Shown piece by piece: positions 1 through 11,160 of a stretch of 28,052 nucleotides of DNA. Under the pieces are notes generated by a model. It saw only the letters and a program-made list of their open reading frames with translations, did no database searches and had not been told where the DNA came from. The stretch's first letter is position 1. Every line of letters starts with the position of its first letter. Source of the DNA: a virus; the IMG/VR virus record IMGVR_UViG_3300020190_000283, positions 1-28,052 of that record; one strand, given 5' to 3'. A program made the position numbers and the translations under genes.

Positions 1-237
1 ATCTTTATCCTTCACCATCCACTCATAGATCTTCTGCCATGCCGGCATATGGTCATCTCGGCATATCTGCCTTAGTGGCTCTCCGTTAGCGAGTCGTTCG
101 CATATCTCTGCGGCGAGCTCCGGGGTGTATTTGGATGGGCGGCCAATCTTAGGTTTCGGCGGGGCTTCTCCCGGGGCCGCAGCCGCCGTGACGGTCATCT
201 CTGCCGTTGGCTTGGTCTTCTTACGTGTTTCAGGCAT
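1..237 (-). CDS. Terminase small subunit, partial (C-terminus beyond window edge)
   Basis: The first 79 codons are present, reading off the left edge. After an Ala/Pro-rich lead of about 30 residues comes GRPSKYTPELAAEICERLA, followed by a segment ending in the YEWM part of a helix-turn-helix. This is the typical start of a phage terminase small subunit, which recognises the packaging site and delivers it to the large subunit. The start is the ATG at 237-235, with GGAATAAGGG just upstream. The large subunit should follow to the left of the window. Family assignment is from recognised motifs only; a DNA-binding regulator of the same fold is a less likely alternative. Confidence 0.8.
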   Translation of the reverse strand, partial: MPETRKKTKPTAEMTVTAAAAPGEAPPKPKIGRPSKYTPELAAEICERLANGEPLRQICRDDHMPAWQKIYEWMVKDKD

Positions 238-514: not shown

Positions 515-534
515 AACGACTTCGGGGTGTCGTT
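515..534 (+). other. Hairpin with T-rich tail
   Basis: AACGAC at 515-520 pairs with GTCGTT at 529-534 around an 8-base loop, followed by TCTTTGTT on the plus strand. CCCCG at 505-509 could instead pair with CGGGG at 523-527, so the two folds exclude each other. No plus-strand gene upstream needs a terminator here, so the role is unclear. Confidence 0.3.
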
Positions 535-549
535 TCTTTGTTCAACCGA

Positions 550-593
550 CGGTTAACCTGCGGTTGACCTGCGGTTAGCCATCGGTTCACCAC
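550..593. repeat. Iteron array 1: four 11-bp tandem repeats
   Basis: Four head-to-tail 11-base units: CGGTTAACCTG (550-560), CGGTTGACCTG (561-571), CGGTTAGCCAT (572-582), CGGTTCACCAC (583-593). GGTT falls at 551, 562, 573 and 584, exactly one helical turn apart. An inverted half-site, AACCG-A-CGGTT, lies at 544-554. The first unit is identical to one on the opposite strand of the array inside the DUF1376 gene. Tandem helically phased sites of this kind usually bind an initiator or regulator cooperatively; that role here is inferred. Confidence 0.75.
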
Positions 594-602
594 TGCCCAA
601 AA

Positions 603-630
603 CCAGAAAAGGCGCCTTATTGAGCGCCTC
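603..630 (-). terminator. Rho-independent terminator of the 2680-653 operon
   Basis: On the minus strand AGGCGC (629-624) pairs with GCGCCT (615-610) around an 8-base loop, followed by TTTTCTGGTTTT. It lies 23 bases past the stop of the last gene of the minus-strand operon, where a terminator is expected, and would insulate the terminase gene from early transcription. Confidence 0.75.
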
Positions 631-652
631 TCTATCCTGCATTTTACTCCTC

Positions 653-2097: not shown

Positions 2098-2370
2098 TTA
2101 AGAAAACCAATAGGTCTTGCCAAACAAGCAAATACCGGTAGTACCAGACCGCAAAGCAGCCGAGTCAAGGGCGGCCTGAACGACCATGTTCTTGTCCAAA
2201 AAAGCCACGGTCTCAACCGGGCGACAGCCATCACCCTCAGTGAAGGTGAAGTTGTTTTTGCTGCGAAGACGGCAGATGAACTTGTCGTCCATCTCTTTGA
2301 TGTACTCCACGATCAACCACTCATCACCGGCGTGGTCGATTGAGGGGCGAGCTGAGATTGTTGTTGCCAT
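2098..2370 (-). CDS. Hypothetical protein, 90 aa
   Basis: Function not recognised. A compact soluble protein with alternating beta-like stretches (EWLIVEYIKEMDDKFICRL, TGICLFGKTYWFS) and two cysteines. It starts at an ATG with CAGGAGATCAAC upstream, 13 bases after the first gene of the operon, and ends just before the hairpin at 2079-2092. Confidence 0.65.
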   Translation of the reverse strand: MATTISARPSIDHAGDEWLIVEYIKEMDDKFICRLRSKNNFTFTEGDGCRPVETVAFLDKNMVVQAALDSAALRSGTTGICLFGKTYWFS

Positions 2371-2383
2371 GTTGATCTCCTGA

Positions 2384-2680
2384 TTAACGTGCGGTAGTTT
2401 TGACAGAGAAGACTGCGGTGGTCTTGGTGTACTTTGCGACTACGTCAGCTGATACGCCAAGGTCAGACAGCAGAGCTTTGTAATCAACGGTGGAGCGGTT
2501 AGCCTCAACCACGGTTGCTTTGAAGAGGTTGCCCTCAAAGACTTTGGAGCCGTTAGGTGCGGTGGCTGAATCTTTAAGCTCGTCTTTGATTGAGTCGGCC
2601 TGGGCTGTCAGATCGGCGATCTGGGCGAGCAGCATGCCCAGCTGATCTACGTTGGTGGTAATCATGTCGGTGGTTTTCAT
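2384..2680 (-). CDS. Hypothetical protein, 98 aa, first gene of early operon
   Basis: Function not recognised. The N-terminal 40 residues form a likely amphipathic helix or coiled coil (QLGMLLAQIADLTAQADSIKDEL). The rest is a small mixed domain with FKATVVEANRSTVDYKALLSDLG, reminiscent of small phage proteins whose role I do not know. The ATG has AAAGGAAA at good spacing. The promoter at 2725-2753 reads directly into this gene. Confidence 0.7.
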   Translation of the reverse strand: MKTTDMITTNVDQLGMLLAQIADLTAQADSIKDELKDSATAPNGSKVFEGNLFKATVVEANRSTVDYKALLSDLGVSADVVAKYTKTTAVFSVKTTAR

Positions 2681-2696
2681 TTCGCTTTCCTTTCGC

Positions 2697-2743
2697 TGTA
2701 ACGATCACAGTGACCGTAGATAGAAATGTAATCGTTCGTTACA
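2697..2743. promoter_or_regulatory. Operator-like inverted repeat at the early promoter
   Basis: TGTAACGA at 2697-2704 is the exact reverse complement of TCGTTACA at 2736-2743. Inside lies a smaller palindrome, TCAC-A-GTGA (2705-2713). The arms flank the -10 box and reach into the spacer of the minus-strand promoter, which is where a repressor would block it. The binding protein is unknown; the Cro-like protein of this phage is one candidate. Confidence 0.5.
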
Positions 2744-2753
2744 CCCCCTGCAA
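2725..2753 (-). promoter_or_regulatory. Sigma-70 promoter for the 2680-653 operon
   Basis: On the minus strand the -35 box is TTGCAG (2753-2748) and the -10 box TACATT (2730-2725), 17 bases apart. Just upstream lie two runs of seven A's separated by GT (2758-2776 region), as in an UP element for the RNA polymerase alpha subunit. The first gene starts about 45 bases downstream of the -10 box. Confidence 0.6.
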
Positions 2754-2789
2754 CCCCTTTTTTTACTTTTTTTACTATAACCCCATAAA

Positions 2790-3092
2790 TTACTCAGGTA
2801 TTAGTCTGGGGGCCTCAGCTAACACCCGCCGGCAGTCCTCCTGTAGGTCAGCCTCGGTGAACCCCCAATGCTTTGGGAAGCCCTTCGTGCCCAGCCCGTG
2901 GACGCCTGTAGGCCCGCGGTGATGCTCGGGGCAGAGTGGGATGGCCTGGGAGTGCGGCGCCCGCCTGGCGCCCCCTACGCCCGTCCTAGGGTGGTGGATC
3001 TCGGCCGGGGTGCCCGGGTAGCCCATGCGCCGGCAAACAGCGCAGCCTAGTTCGGCTAGGGCAGACAGGTGGCGCTTCTCGTCTTTTGTCAC
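2790..3092 (-). CDS. Ref-like HNH nuclease (RecA-dependent nuclease family)
   Basis: A 100-aa protein with the pattern of the phage P1 Ref nuclease domain: a CAVCRRMG zinc-knuckle-like pair of cysteines (C18, C21), then PAEIHHPR, a Gly/Arg-rich loop, HSQAIPLCPEHHRG and GVHGLGTKGFPKHWG. The His-rich parts match the HNH fold. P1 Ref cuts DNA at RecA-made displacement loops; here it could act in phage recombination. It lacks the long basic N-terminal arm of P1 Ref, as do many phage relatives. The start is a GTG overlapping the upstream stop as GTGA. It is the last gene of the long operon; no hairpin terminator follows. Confidence 0.75.
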   Translation of the reverse strand: MTKDEKRHLSALAELGCAVCRRMGYPGTPAEIHHPRTGVGGARRAPHSQAIPLCPEHHRGPTGVHGLGTKGFPKHWGFTEADLQEDCRRVLAEAPRLIPE

Positions 3093-6531: not shown

Positions 6532-6767
6532 TTCCAGCCTTCGCCTCGATTACCTTTATGCCACTGGCTAAGTACGTCTCGTTCCAAAATAGATCTGGGG
6601 TGCTTTTCGTTCCAGCCTTTGAGCCACTTGACCGCCTTATCCCGATCATGAAGCCGCATACGGATAACCCAAGCCACCAGATGTCGGTGCCTGCTTTGGT
6701 CCTCGCCCTCGCCTTCCTTCCAGGCTCTAAGTTTTTCCCATACCGCATCAGAAGTCTCCCTTGTCAT
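6528..6767 (-). CDS. Hypothetical protein, 79 aa (DUF7696-like)
   Basis: A soluble basic protein: RHRHLVAWVIRMRLHDRDKA, then WLKGWNEKHP and LERDVLSQWHKGNRG. The layout resembles the phage family DUF7696 as I remember it, unknown in function. The ATG at 6767, which overlaps the helicase gene by 20 bases, gives MTRETSD; the competing frame starting at 6748 yields a low-complexity protein and is judged a shadow. The stop overlaps the RusA ATG as ATGA. Confidence 0.65.
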   Translation of the reverse strand: MTRETSDAVWEKLRAWKEGEGEDQSRHRHLVAWVIRMRLHDRDKAVKWLKGWNEKHPRSILERDVLSQWHKGNRGEGWK

Positions 6768-7698
6768 CGAACACCATCGGCCTGCTGTCAAATTGATCAA
6801 TGAACTGGTGGCTGTCTTTGTGAAACCACAATGAATACCAGTCCTCGTTTTCTCCGTTTCGCTGTTTCTCGCACATCAACATCGCATCTGGTGTCGCATC
6901 GTCTACGCTATTGCCCGCATGGCTTGCGTGCTCTTTCTTTTTATTTCGCCAAACGAGTAACACGTTATCAACCTGATCTGCAATAGACCCGGTGCCCTTT
7001 AAATCGTTCTTATTCGGTGTCACCTCTTCACTCGTAAGTTTTCGAATGTGATGCACCAGGTGAATATGGATGTTGTGATCCCGGGCCAGAGCGGTTAGCT
7101 CATCCACAAAATATTTCTGCGCGTTGTAATCGTCTTCACTCGGCACGCACTTCATGAGCGAGTCAATAAAAATATGAGTGATTTGCAGCTTGACTGCGCA
7201 GTACCTAGCCATTGCAATGACCTGATTTGCATTGGTCGTTCCCTGCTGGTCGTAAAACCAAAGGTGACTTGCCGAGAAGTCTTTAAAGCGCATGACTAAA
7301 TCGGTGATGTACTTTGCTTTGTCCTGGTACCGCGGCCGATCAATGTTCTCGCCGGAAAACTGGCGGATCATCCGGTAGATTGATCGCTTGGGCTTCATCT
7401 CAAACGAAGCTATGCAGACCCGTTGCTTTTGCTTAATTAAGCCCATCGCAATCTGGCCGGTGATCAAAGACTTCCCGCCACCGTTTGAGCCGGCATAGAC
7501 CGTGACCTCACCCGGACGGTAGTGAAACGACGCCTGGGTCTTGATCCAGGGCATGCAGATCAGGTTTTCCTGCGGCGGGTGGATGGCGTCTTGCTTAATA
7601 TCCTCCAGCCAGACCCCGGCCTCGCGGATCTTTTGCTGGGGTTCCGTCGCATGTAGGTAGGCAGCAAAATCGATGTTGTCAGGCTGCAGGATATTCAA
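6748..7698 (-). CDS. DnaB-like replicative helicase (RecA-fold ATPase)
   Basis: 316 aa with a RecA-type core: Walker A GSNGGGKS (70-77), SFEMKP (98-103), Walker B THIFIDS (174-180), HLVHHIRK (213-220) and KGTGSIADQVDN (234-245), the last like the H4/arginine-finger region of DnaB and T7 gp4 helicases. It lacks a primase domain and the long DnaB N-terminal domain, so a primase or host DnaG must help. It should unwind the fork after loading by the DUF1376 initiator candidate upstream. The start is a TTG with GGGAG 6 bases before it; no nearby ATG fits. Confidence 0.88.
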   Translation of the reverse strand: MNILQPDNIDFAAYLHATEPQQKIREAGVWLEDIKQDAIHPPQENLICMPWIKTQASFHYRPGEVTVYAGSNGGGKSLITGQIAMGLIKQKQRVCIASFEMKPKRSIYRMIRQFSGENIDRPRYQDKAKYITDLVMRFKDFSASHLWFYDQQGTTNANQVIAMARYCAVKLQITHIFIDSLMKCVPSEDDYNAQKYFVDELTALARDHNIHIHLVHHIRKLTSEEVTPNKNDLKGTGSIADQVDNVLLVWRNKKKEHASHAGNSVDDATPDAMLMCEKQRNGENEDWYSLWFHKDSHQFIDQFDSRPMVFDDKGDF

Positions 7699-8026
7699 TC
7701 TTCGCTCCCAAGTTAAACAGCAAATTGCCCTCGATCATGGTCGACACAGACTTGGCGCCTACCTCCGTAAATGCCCGGTGAACTTTCAGGATTCGGTCCC
7801 TAGAATCGTCTCCGTCGATGTGAACCTGCAGCCCATAGGCAAACCTAAGGTCCAAAAATTCGATCCGATCAGAGGGCAAAATGGCCACTTCCGGGTGAGA
7901 ACGAAACTCTGGAATTTCGGGCCATAGAGCCGACATCTCAGTCGGGTGGATACCTACCCATACCCAGACCGCTTTGGGGGCCTTACCGGCCATTCTCATG
8001 CGTTTTAGAGGCATATCTCCGATCAC
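7679..8026 (-). CDS. Hypothetical protein, 115 aa, between initiator and helicase
   Basis: Function not recognised. After a basic start (MPLKRMRMAGKAPK) it has WVWVGIHPTEMSALWPEIPEF, ILPSDRIEFLDLRFAYGLQVHIDGDD and FTEVGAKSVSTMIEGNLLFNLG, a mixed alpha/beta protein. Its place between the initiator candidate and the helicase suggests a loader or replication accessory role, by position only. The GTG at 8026 is chosen: AAGGAG lies just upstream and it overlaps the DUF1376 stop as GTGA. A longer reading (from 8092) is possible but lacks support. Confidence 0.65.
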   Translation of the reverse strand: MIGDMPLKRMRMAGKAPKAVWVWVGIHPTEMSALWPEIPEFRSHPEVAILPSDRIEFLDLRFAYGLQVHIDGDDSRDRILKVHRAFTEVGAKSVSTMIEGNLLFNLGAKIEYPAA

Positions 8027-8748
8027 AGAACTCTCCTTCCTGCAAAAACTCCTGGGGTTGAGCTGTCCCCTTCGGGGTTGCCGTCCAGCCACCGGGACTG
8101 CCCAAGGTAGGTTTTTGGGGACGGTTCAAACCCCTCCCGCCACTGCTGGGTCTGTTTCATCGCCCGGATGTGGCCGAGGATCTCGGCGGCCAGGGCATCG
8201 AGCTTGCGGTCAGCCCAAATTTTCTGGCAGGCAGCCCTGGCGACCTTGCGCTTGCTTGCCGGCCAGACGGTCCAAAAATTTTCGAACGCGGTCGACGCAG
8301 TCGACGAAGGGTGTTGCTTTTGTTTTTCTGGTTCTGTTTCTGTATCTGTTTGGTTGCCCGCAGGTTCACCGGAGGTTGACCGCAGGTTAACCGCTGGTTC
8401 AGAGCCTTGACTGGTGCGCTTCTTAGCCGCACGAGCTTGTCTTGCCTTAACGCTCTTTTTGGCAATTTCGGTGTTATGTTTGACAAATTTTGCGTACTTC
8501 GAAATCTCTTCTTCGCACCGTTGGTTCAACCATCCGTCAACCGTCGGTTGAAAGAACTCTTTGAGCACTGGTTCGACCACATCCAGGTCCATCCGAACCT
8601 TCTTACAAACGACCGTTAGATCGTTTGGAATGGGCTTTTCGGTCATCATGTAGAGGTCGATCAGACGCCGGTAGGCTAGGTCCTCGGCGTCGTCCAGGTG
8701 CAGGGTATGCGTGATGTAGTCCCCGACGTGGAATTTGTACCAAATCAT
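8023..8748 (-). CDS. DUF1376 replication protein, candidate origin-binding initiator
   Basis: 241 aa. Residues 1-90 are a DUF1376 domain (WYKFHVGDYITHT, DDAEDLAYRRLIDLYMMTE, PTVDGWLNQRCEEEI), a winged-helix domain found in phage replication proteins. A basic stretch (KKSVKARQARAAKKR) and a polar linker of about 45 residues follow. The C-terminal part (FENFWTVWPASKRKVARAACQKIWA, then FEPSPKTYLGQSRW) resembles the C-terminus of phage O-type replication proteins. The linker DNA holds five 11-bp tandem repeats (8350-8404), as the lambda O gene contains its own origin. ATG overlaps the Cro-like gene stop as ATGA. Confidence 0.85.
   Translation of the reverse strand: MIWYKFHVGDYITHTLHLDDAEDLAYRRLIDLYMMTEKPIPNDLTVVCKKVRMDLDVVEPVLKEFFQPTVDGWLNQRCEEEISKYAKFVKHNTEIAKKSVKARQARAAKKRTSQGSEPAVNLRSTSGEPAGNQTDTETEPEKQKQHPSSTASTAFENFWTVWPASKRKVARAACQKIWADRKLDALAAEILGHIRAMKQTQQWREGFEPSPKTYLGQSRWLDGNPEGDSSTPGVFAGRRVL
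8350..8404. repeat. Iteron array 2 inside the DUF1376 gene (candidate origin)
   Basis: Five 11-base units with GGTT at 8352, 8363, 8374, 8385 and 8396. Read on the minus strand they include CGGTTAACCTG (8393-8383), CGGTCAACCTC (8382-8372), CGGTGAACCTG (8371-8361) and weaker CGGGCAACCAA (8360-8350). The period is not a multiple of three, so the encoded peptide is not repeated: the pattern is kept at DNA level. One unit equals the first unit of the array at 550-593. A further site TCAACC-GTC-GGTTGA lies at 8537-8551. Confidence 0.8.
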
Positions 8749-8954
8749 TTGACCTCCCCGAACAGATCTGGCCGTAGATCTACCCGCCGCACCTGGCCGT
8801 TTGTGATCCGTTCTATCTCAAGGGCCAGCTCCGGGCTCGGTATGCGCAGGCCGTTGATAACCAGGGCCATCCAGGTCCGGCTAATGCCCAGGGCCTTGGC
8901 CATGTCTGCCTTGCTGCCATGCGGCTTGCCGGCGAAATACTCTCTCAATGTCAT
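8745..8954 (-). CDS. Cro/YdaS-like transcription regulator, 69 aa
   Basis: A small helix-turn-helix protein: MTLREYFAGKPHGSKADMAKALGIS..WMALVINGLRIPS, then the ITNGQVRRVDLRPDLF end typical of YdaS/Cro-like proteins. It probably binds as a dimer in the divergent promoter region just upstream and controls both early operons. The ATG at 8954 is chosen because CAGGAG lies 7 bases before it; a start 27 bases upstream has no ribosome site and would lie downstream of the -10 box by only a few bases. No partner repressor of CI type is seen. Confidence 0.85.
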   Translation of the reverse strand: MTLREYFAGKPHGSKADMAKALGISRTWMALVINGLRIPSPELALEIERITNGQVRRVDLRPDLFGEVK

Positions 8955-8979
8955 CGCTATCTCCTGAAAATCTAACTGC

Positions 8980-9007
8980 ATAGTAAACCATTTTATCTGG
9001 AATGCAA
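8980..9007 (-). promoter_or_regulatory. Promoter for the cro-like/replication operon
   Basis: On the minus strand TTGCAT (9007-9002) and TACTAT (8985-8980) are 16 bases apart. The ATG of the Cro-like gene lies about 26 bases downstream of the -10 box. It is the only plausible sigma-70 pair between the divergent genes on this strand. Confidence 0.5.
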
Positions 9008-9071: not shown

Positions 9072-9275
9072 ATGACTGACAGCGAATATCACCAGGCCAA
9101 CCTGGAATTGCAGCAGATGCTGGAAGACGCCCTTAGCCGGGCTGAGGCCGGCAAAGCCACCCCGGACGACTGGAACTTAATCCGGTACGGGTGCGGCTTG
9201 AAAAAGCGTCCAGCAGCTATTTTTAAACCATACAAAGGAGCAGACGATGGGTCTTACAGTGAAAGCGGGTTCTGA
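9072..9275 (+). CDS. Hypothetical protein, 67 aa
   Basis: Function not recognised. The first 40 residues are an acidic helix (LELQQMLEDALSRAEAGKATPDDWNLIRYGCGL), a pattern I associate with small proteins in other phage replication regions; the C-terminal part is flexible. It is the first gene of the plus-strand operon and overlaps the SSB-like gene by 29 bases, with the ribosome site of the latter inside it. The upstream context of its ATG is weak (AGCGACAG). Confidence 0.6.
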   Translation: MTDSEYHQANLELQQMLEDALSRAEAGKATPDDWNLIRYGCGLKKRPAAIFKPYKGADDGSYSESGF

Positions 9276-9894
9276 AGGTAGTTTTGTACCGGTACCAGCC
9301 GGGTTGCATCTGGCGCGGTGCTATCAAATCATCGATCTTGGTACGCAAAAAAGCGAATACATGGGCAAGACAAAGTACCAGCCCAAGGTGATGTTTAAGT
9401 TTGAGGTGCATGGCGAAGACGACCAGGGCAACCCTCTGGTGACCTCTAAAGGCGAGCCGATGTCGATCAGCAAGAACTACACGGCATCCCTGTCCGATAT
9501 GGCCACCCTACGGGAAGACTTAAAGAACTGGCGCGGCCGGGACTTCACCCCCGAGGAACTGCGTGCCTTTGAGCTAAAAAACGTTCTGGGCGTGTTTGCC
9601 ATGATCTCGGTGTCTACCGCCCAGGGTAGGGACGGAAAGGAATACACCAACATCGGGGCCATCATGCCGGTGCCTGCCAACATCAAGAAGGCCGGCCTAC
9701 CAGAGGGCCATAACCCCACCGCGTTTTTTGATCTCGATAACCCAGACATGACACTGTTTGAAACGTTAAGCGAAAACATCAAAAACAAAATTATGTCGTC
9801 ACCTGAATGGCAGGAGCGTCAAGGCGGTGTGATCGAGGGAATTGGTTCGCCAATCAATCAGATTACCAAGCTCGATGACGACATACCCTTTTGA
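9247..9894 (+). CDS. Phage single-stranded DNA-binding protein analogue
   Basis: 215 aa. The first part (FVPVPAGLHLARCYQIIDLGTQKS, YQPKVMFKFEVHGED) looks like an OB-type beta fold seen in phage SSB-like proteins; the last part is a flexible linker ending DDDIPF. That acidic tip is the hallmark of bacterial SSB proteins, used to recruit repair and replication partners. The protein should coat single strands at the fork and during recombination. The start has AAAGGAG at good spacing. Its neighbour four genes down is a PD-(D/E)XK exonuclease. Family assignment rests on layout and the tip, not on an exact match. Confidence 0.72.
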   Translation: MGLTVKAGSEGSFVPVPAGLHLARCYQIIDLGTQKSEYMGKTKYQPKVMFKFEVHGEDDQGNPLVTSKGEPMSISKNYTASLSDMATLREDLKNWRGRDFTPEELRAFELKNVLGVFAMISVSTAQGRDGKEYTNIGAIMPVPANIKKAGLPEGHNPTAFFDLDNPDMTLFETLSENIKNKIMSSPEWQERQGGVIEGIGSPINQITKLDDDIPF

Positions 9895-10381: not shown

Positions 10382-11160
10382 CCGAACTTAAAGTTTCAGC
10401 TTATACCGCTGAGTCTGGCCATTGGTACACCCGTAACGGGGAGCCGATGTACCAGATCGAGGGCGCTAATGGCAAGATCAGAAATACGACCCTACGAGAT
10501 GCCCGTAAGCACAACCTGGTGCCGTCCGTTACAACCATTCTCAATGTGGCAGCCAAGCCTGGTCTCGACAACTGGAAGCTCCAGCAGGTCCTTCTGGCTG
10601 CGCTGACGCTACCGCGTAATGAAGGCGAACCCGAGGGTGCTTATATCGATCGGATCATTTCTGACTCAAAAGAGCAGGGACGGTCTGCTGCGGACGCTGG
10701 CACCGAAATCCATGCTTCTGTCGAGAAGTTCTTTGACAAGAAAGTTATTGTTGGGCACGAGCAACACGTCCGCGGTGTTGAGCGCGAGATTAAGAAGGTC
10801 TTTGGTGACCAGGACTGGATCTGCGAAAGACCCTTTGCTCATGAGACTGGCTTCGGCGGCAAGGTCGATATGTTTGCCCGCGGGACAATCAAATCCGATG
10901 ATGGGATTGTCTTGGACATCAAAACCAAAGAGTTTTATGACTCAAATAAGGTCGAAGGATACGACGAGCACATGATGCAACTGGCTGCTTACCGGGTGGG
11001 TATAGGCATGCAGTCGGCTAAGTGCGCGAACGTCTTTGTGTCCCGTAGTGTTCCGGGCCTAGTCAAAATCATTGAGTGGAGCCCAGAAGATCTACAACGT
11101 GGCTGGAAGATGTTTTACCGTCTGTTGGAGTTCTGGCAATTTAAAAATAACTATAAATGA
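10378..11160 (+). CDS. PD-(D/E)XK exonuclease (RecB/Cas4-like)
   Basis: 260 aa. GTEIHASVEKFF (108-119) is the GxxIH-type first helix; GKVDM (161-165) gives D164, VLDIKTK (178-184) gives the D180-x-K182 pair, and MMQLAAY (199-205) is the QLxxY motif of the RecB family. Together these define a metal-dependent exonuclease. In phages such enzymes resect ends for recombination or degrade host DNA. Neighbouring SSB-like, RusA and Ref-like proteins fit a recombination system; no annealing protein (Redbeta, RecT, Erf) is recognised. The stop overlaps the next ATG as ATGA. Confidence 0.85.
   Translation: MTELKVSAYTAESGHWYTRNGEPMYQIEGANGKIRNTTLRDARKHNLVPSVTTILNVAAKPGLDNWKLQQVLLAALTLPRNEGEPEGAYIDRIISDSKEQGRSAADAGTEIHASVEKFFDKKVIVGHEQHVRGVEREIKKVFGDQDWICERPFAHETGFGGKVDMFARGTIKSDDGIVLDIKTKEFYDSNKVEGYDEHMMQLAAYRVGIGMQSAKCANVFVSRSVPGLVKIIEWSPEDLQRGWKMFYRLLEFWQFKNNYK

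Follow-up and report, generated by a model that had tools for sequence, protein, structure and literature searches.

The window, i.e. the whole stretch of DNA that was analysed, is a 28-kb virus record (28,052 nt; IMGVR_UViG_3300020190_000283, positions 1 to 28,052). Its minus strand carries a DUF1376/YdaU gene (8023-8748), which encodes a candidate replication initiator of 241 aa and was characterised using Pfam (PF07120), PHROG and AlphaFold2. A gene for a YdaS/Cro-like HTH protein (8745-8981, minus strand; PF15943, E=9.3e-13) is located directly upstream. Downstream is a gene for a protein with a DnaB-type helicase domain (6748-7698, minus strand; PF03796, E=3e-19), beyond which Pfam and PHROG matches identify a RusA gene. 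The 3' end of the DUF1376 gene is overlapped in another frame by a 137-aa ORF with a GTG start (7679-8092, minus strand), for which no match was obtained in Pfam or PHROG. Moreover, the protein encoded at 9247-9894 ends in DDDIPF, the tail typical of single-strand binding proteins, and has a homologue in L024, one of the closest relatives of the window phage, at positions 2349-2987 (minus strand), where the homologue adjoins the second repeat array of L024 (see below).

The window protein matches PF07120 with 75.6 bits (curated cut-off 30.1; E=3.9e-21), and all 64 relatives aligned with it match the same family. DUF1376 was the only Pfam match of the window protein and of these 64 relatives, which places them outside the lambda O family. 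Among the PHROG families the window protein matched 'primosomal protein' (8.9e-35), and its matches to 'replication initiation protein' were restricted to the C-terminal half. AlphaFold2 modelling (64 sequences) predicted an N-terminal domain (residues 1-113; pLDDT >90 over most of it), a disordered linker with low pLDDT (residues 118-150) and a C-terminal helical domain (residues 153-216); the N-terminal domain models as winged-helix-like and ends in a long helix. Fold matches in the PDB were weak (none with E<=0.001), with many winged-helix proteins among them, and a PDB search by sequence returned nothing convincing; the best fold matches to viral models were DUF1376, Lin1244/Lin1753-like and 'replisome organizer' proteins. 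The predicted disordered linker coincides with the DNA repeats described in the following.

The part of the DUF1376 gene that encodes the linker contains five 11-bp units (8352-8406, minus strand), which are out of phase with the codons. On the plus strand these are GGTTGCCCGCA (8352-8362), GGTTCACCGGA (8363-8373), GGTTGACCGCA (8374-8384), GGTTAACCGCT (8385-8395) and GGTTCAGAGCC (8396-8406), and read on the gene strand the array is GGCTCTGAACC AGCGGTTAACC TGCGGTCAACC TCCGGTGAACC TGCGGGCAACC. An initial annotation of this DNA had noted five units exactly 11 bases apart in the linker-coding DNA, and the unit starts (8352, 8363, 8374, 8385 and 8396) bear this out; as to its description of all five as GGTTNACC-type, the three middle units are perfect matches and the outer two only partial ones. 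Its statement that the peptide is not repetitive holds as well, the encoded GSEPAVNLRSTSGEPAGNQ having no regular repeat. The best 33-bp stretch of the gene has 27/33 matches at lag 11, to be compared with maxima of 22 at lag 11 and 24 at any lag from 7 to 35 in order-1 Markov shuffles of the whole window (n=300). Within the DUF1376 gene, 27/33 was reached in 0/2000 codon shuffles and in 3/2000 synonymous shuffles.

Abutting the 11-bp units on the gene-3' side is an A-rich 6-bp array that the initial annotation had not noted (8325-8351, minus strand; ACAGAT/ACAGAA on the gene strand, TTTCTG on the plus strand; TRF period 6, 4.5 copies). Duplex stability is low at 8325-8351, and we regard this array as a candidate DNA unwinding element. 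In the domain-coding part of the same gene, GGTTCAACC, GGTTGAA and GGTTCGACC are spaced by ~23-24 bp (8523-8578), and these may be weak extra sites or a coincidence. A search among phages at the DNA level gave no match to the replication region of the window. When IMG/VR was searched for exact copies of three GGTTNACC units in tandem, a single match was returned, which lies in a hairpin-like region of the viral contig L011 and appears to be unrelated; in L011, tandem GGTTGACCACC units are followed by inverted copies of them (10980-11110).

To survey the family we used 77 non-redundant DUF1376 genes without ambiguous bases from phages and IMG/VR, and a gene was scored as positive when it had at least 22/33 matches at lags 7, 11, 14 or 22. 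Since this threshold was set on the 77 phage genes, the test was repeated on an independent set of 32 prophage DUF1376 genes from bacterial genomes (Pseudomonadota, Nitrospirota, Bacteroidota, Verrucomicrobiota and others). In the comparison that the initial annotation had proposed as a check, the 11-bp period is kept in related linkers, with at least 22/33 matches in 41 of the 77 phage genes and in none of 246 control ORFs. Taking the four lags together, 63/77 phage DUF1376 genes were positive compared with 0/246 other ORFs at the same loci, and 22/32 prophage genes were positive. With both sets pooled, 11-bp and/or 7-bp linker repeats are present in 85 of 109 non-redundant DUF1376 genes; the remaining 24 lack a strong repeat at the lags used, and several of these have 6-bp repeats only, which could be peptide repeats.

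Pooled autocorrelation over linker codons 95-150 of the 77 phage genes was 0.391 at lag 11, 0.355 at lag 22, 0.339 at lag 33 and 0.340 at lag 7, and reached 0.441 at lag 11 in the first half of the linker; codon-shuffled sequences gave ~0.28, and the two domains of these genes 0.26-0.30. The peaks at 11, 22, 33 and 7 are confined to the linker, are absent from the two domains and were replicated in the prophages. For period 11, the z-scores relative to codon and synonymous shuffles were 29.5 and 18.6, respectively, in the phage set, and 15.1 and 8.2 in the prophage set. The motif of the 11-bp units varies among phages, e.g. AACCCA, TTCAACG, GCGAACGC, AACCCAGT and CGGTTAACCTG among others, and the spacing is constant.

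The composite layout seen in the window is typical of the family. Specifically, a run of about four 11-bp units gives way to repeats of 6 or 7 bp, and in all 38 genes with both arrays the short-period one lies on the gene-3' side of the 11-bp array (median offset 48 bp). The short-period array is composed of 55% A, 31% C, 3% G and 11% T and forms the 40 bp of lowest duplex stability in an average gene, such that the 11-bp units are adjoined by an easily melted A+T-rich element (AT 0.66 vs 0.48), as would be expected of an origin located within a gene.

A second five-unit 11-bp array, overlooked in the initial annotation, was detected in the window at 540-594 (plus strand) by TRF, pattern search, whole-contig scan and an own-versus-foreign motif test. 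It is intergenic, ~300 bp upstream of terS, and its units (GTTCAACCGAC GGTTAACCTGC GGTTGACCTGC GGTTAGCCATC GGTTCACCACT) have the motif and spacing of the in-gene array, 7.8 kb away, in the opposite orientation. The score of 26/33 at lag 11 is above all shuffles. The array is flanked on one side by a terminator-like hairpin (632-607) belonging to the minus-strand early operon and on the other by a second hairpin (515-534, plus strand) revealed by hairpin analysis, beyond which terS starts (237). An A-rich stretch beside the array was considered as an unwinding element and rejected, being the T tract of the terminator (607-632, minus strand). The terS gene itself (1-237, minus strand) is cut by the contig end, leaving the N-terminal part of TerS, the terminase small subunit; its translation as an open-ended ORF, GRPSKYTPELAAEICERL...ICRDDHMP, matches the L024 ORF at 1381-1896, and we take it to be TerS from recognising the sequence. 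Close to where terS begins, and to a promoter-like site (301-273, minus strand), GGTTAGCCAGC is followed 11 bp on by GGTCTAGG (285-306), a pair that is possibly a degenerate copy of the same 11-bp motif.

The location of the arrays is specific within each genome. Across 32 phage contigs, strong 11-bp arrays were located in DUF1376 genes apart from two, each of which has the motif of its own phage. A search with each phage's own motif through 1.31 Mb outside DUF1376 genes detected four arrays (in the window, L024, L065 and L102), and scans of 41 Mb with foreign motifs yielded nine matches, of which eight fell on these four arrays and came from related motifs. In the window and L024 the second arrays are positioned 300-400 bp upstream of homologous terS genes and in the same orientation relative to terS, with different motifs; in L065 and L102 the second array falls within the final part of the preceding gene, some 60 bp ahead of the DUF1376 start. 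Since arrays with a phage's own motif are found both in and outside the gene, a single trans-acting factor in each phage reading both is the simplest account, and from the sequences the DUF1376 protein is the natural candidate for this factor.

Considered together with the adjoining A-rich 6/7-bp repeats, the 11-bp iterons most probably constitute a phage replication origin within the linker-coding DNA of the initiator's own gene. In this respect, the window DUF1376 gene has repeated sites that are selected at the DNA level (see below) and a helicase gene (DnaB_C) downstream in the same module, as an origin inside an initiator gene would. Among 50 records, DnaB_C was detected over the Pfam cut-off in 19 and an IstB/DnaC-like domain in three more, i.e. 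22/50; the 28 records with neither by Pfam count against the origin. An alternative, which we consider unlikely, is that the arrays are operators through which the DUF1376 protein or its YdaS/Cro-like neighbour controls transcription with no origin involved. Operators could well be placed where the second arrays are, be it ~60 bp upstream of the DUF1376 start in L065 and L102 or upstream of terS in the window and L024, but such out-of-gene arrays are present in four phages only, and in nearly every relative the main array is found ~300 bp into the gene. Moreover, an A-rich, G-poor element invariably accompanies the main array on one and the same side, and operators have no need of such an element.

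That selection acts on the DNA, as the initial annotation had argued from the window, is supported throughout the family. Neither 11 nor 7 is a multiple of 3, and in the phage and prophage sets alike the signal is stronger than in synonymous shuffles. The unit cores, separated by variable spacers, match about equally well whichever of the three reading phases they are in (0.92-0.94 for AACCCA). In L065 and L102 (79% identical), the same A-to-G change has occurred in three successive units and alters the amino acid in two of the three (N to S and T to A), which points to a concerted change of binding sites that an explanation at the peptide level does not give. These data, together with the presence of the same motif in second arrays outside the gene, make it very improbable that the repeats lack a DNA function and are a byproduct of replication slippage or of selection on an N/Q/T/P/K-rich linker, even though the linkers are polar and of low complexity, the plain 6-bp repeats of some genes (TPTPTP, NTNTNT) fit slippage and, for the window alone, 3/2000 synonymous shuffles reach the observed score. 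Binding of the arrays by some other protein, e.g. TerS at a packaging site or a partition protein, with the in-gene position a chance of phage organisation, would agree with the position of the second arrays in the window and L024, which precede homologous terS genes by ~300-400 bp and are oriented alike relative to terS, but we find it hardly credible given that the TerS N-termini of these two phages are closely similar and the array motifs differ (CGGTTAACCTG vs GCGAACGCACT), that each second-array motif matches the DUF1376 gene of its own phage and that phages and prophages of very different kinds have in-gene arrays in their DUF1376 genes.

For the proposed in-gene origin we envisage that the 11-bp units would be the iterons bound by the initiator and the adjoining A-rich 6/7-bp repeats the unwinding element. 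The DUF1376 protein would bind the iterons via its winged-helix-like N-terminal domain, on one face of the helix and with one turn per unit, and, once bound, could melt the A-rich element; its C-terminal domain might then recruit the helicase or a loader, often encoded next door, and the origin would fire. The array can persist in the linker because three 11-bp units (33 bp) stay in frame, and the linker would tolerate almost any polar peptide.

The initial annotation had likened this arrangement to lambda O with its in-gene origin, in a different protein family. The family-wide 11-bp period and the separate Pfam family uphold this comparison, and the sequence data support it as a mechanism. 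In lambda, ori comprises iterons and an AT-rich tract in gene O (PMC7466680), and as in the DUF1376 genes the initiator-binding iterons are in the middle of the gene and are followed by A-rich DNA on the gene-3' side. The two differ in that lambda has four 18-bp inverted repeats 20-24 bp apart, compared with exactly spaced 11-bp direct repeats in the DUF1376 genes, and in that lambda has no evident counterpart of the A/C-rich element with its 6/7-bp period; furthermore, lambda O and DUF1376 belong to different Pfam families.

The Bacillus phage SPP1 has two origins, oriL in gene 38 and oriR ~13 kb away, which are both bound by gp38; oriL contains direct repeats and an AT-rich unwinding element, oriR is organised alike and has been proposed to stall forks and trigger concatemer synthesis, and the system includes a helicase loader and a DnaB-type helicase (PMC6316719). 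Compared by layout, the window similarly has an initiator gene with repeats and a melting element, a helicase and a second distant site with the same repeats 7.8 kb off, although the array at 540-594 has no clear unwinding element of its own and second sites of this kind are present in only four phages of the set. By analogy with oriL/oriR, the array ahead of terS probably serves as a second origin, a fork barrier or a regulatory site. Overall, the sequence comparisons support the view that the feature in the window would work like the in-gene origins of lambda and SPP1, outside the lambda O family, and those two phages demonstrate that an arrangement of this type can function as an origin; searches of the open-access literature yielded no account of a DUF1376 gene containing one.

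In the Rac prophage of E. coli the gene order is ydaS-ydaT-ydaU-ydaV, where YdaU is a DUF1376 protein and the downstream ydaV encodes an ATP-binding protein. A ydaS-type gene is upstream in both Rac and the window, with ydaT in between in Rac and the YdaS/Cro-like gene directly upstream in the window. Rac has an active origin, oriJ (PMC3945230), and its mapped position relative to ydaU was not found in the open-access literature. In the linker of E. coli ydaU, GATGTTCAA-type repeats recur at intervals of 33, 33 and 12 bp alongside an A-rich stretch; the 11-bp periodicity of this linker is weak, the 33-bp repeat scoring 22/33, which is within the codon-shuffle range. The DUF1376 linker suggests a testable position for the long-known oriJ.

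If the in-gene origin is real, DUF1376, a widespread domain of unknown function, gains a likely role as a replication initiator, and it could become possible to read many phage and prophage origins directly from the initiator genes. Origins within initiator genes would then be a family-wide feature in a further protein family, with a grammar of 11-bp and 7-bp repeats that is easy to scan for, and dozens of natural initiator/iteron pairs with differing motifs would provide a ready set for work on DNA recognition. With respect to the latter, the peptide types GGRP, GKAS and ARW pair with the motif types AACCCA, TTCAACG and GCGAACGC, respectively, and peptide type agrees with motif type in all 44 classified DUF1376 genes. 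The domain tree is weakly supported and has one supported pair for an independent change of peptide and motif; we therefore treat the agreement as a lead and reject the covariation as proof of recognition, its phylogenetic independence being limited to that pair. Tentatively, the linkers could be swappable cassettes in which a specificity peptide after the winged helix and a matching 11-bp origin are changed together; in the window and L024, the additional copy ahead of terS would then couple the initiator to the transition from circle to concatemer replication and packaging. Finally, on the Acinetobacter plasmid pSWBY1 (L203, 21372-22262) a ydaU gene is paired with an ATP-binding-protein gene beside a separate repM; as the plasmid also carries repM it is not decisive as proof of replicon function, and its ydaU linker contains 7-bp and 33-bp repeats.
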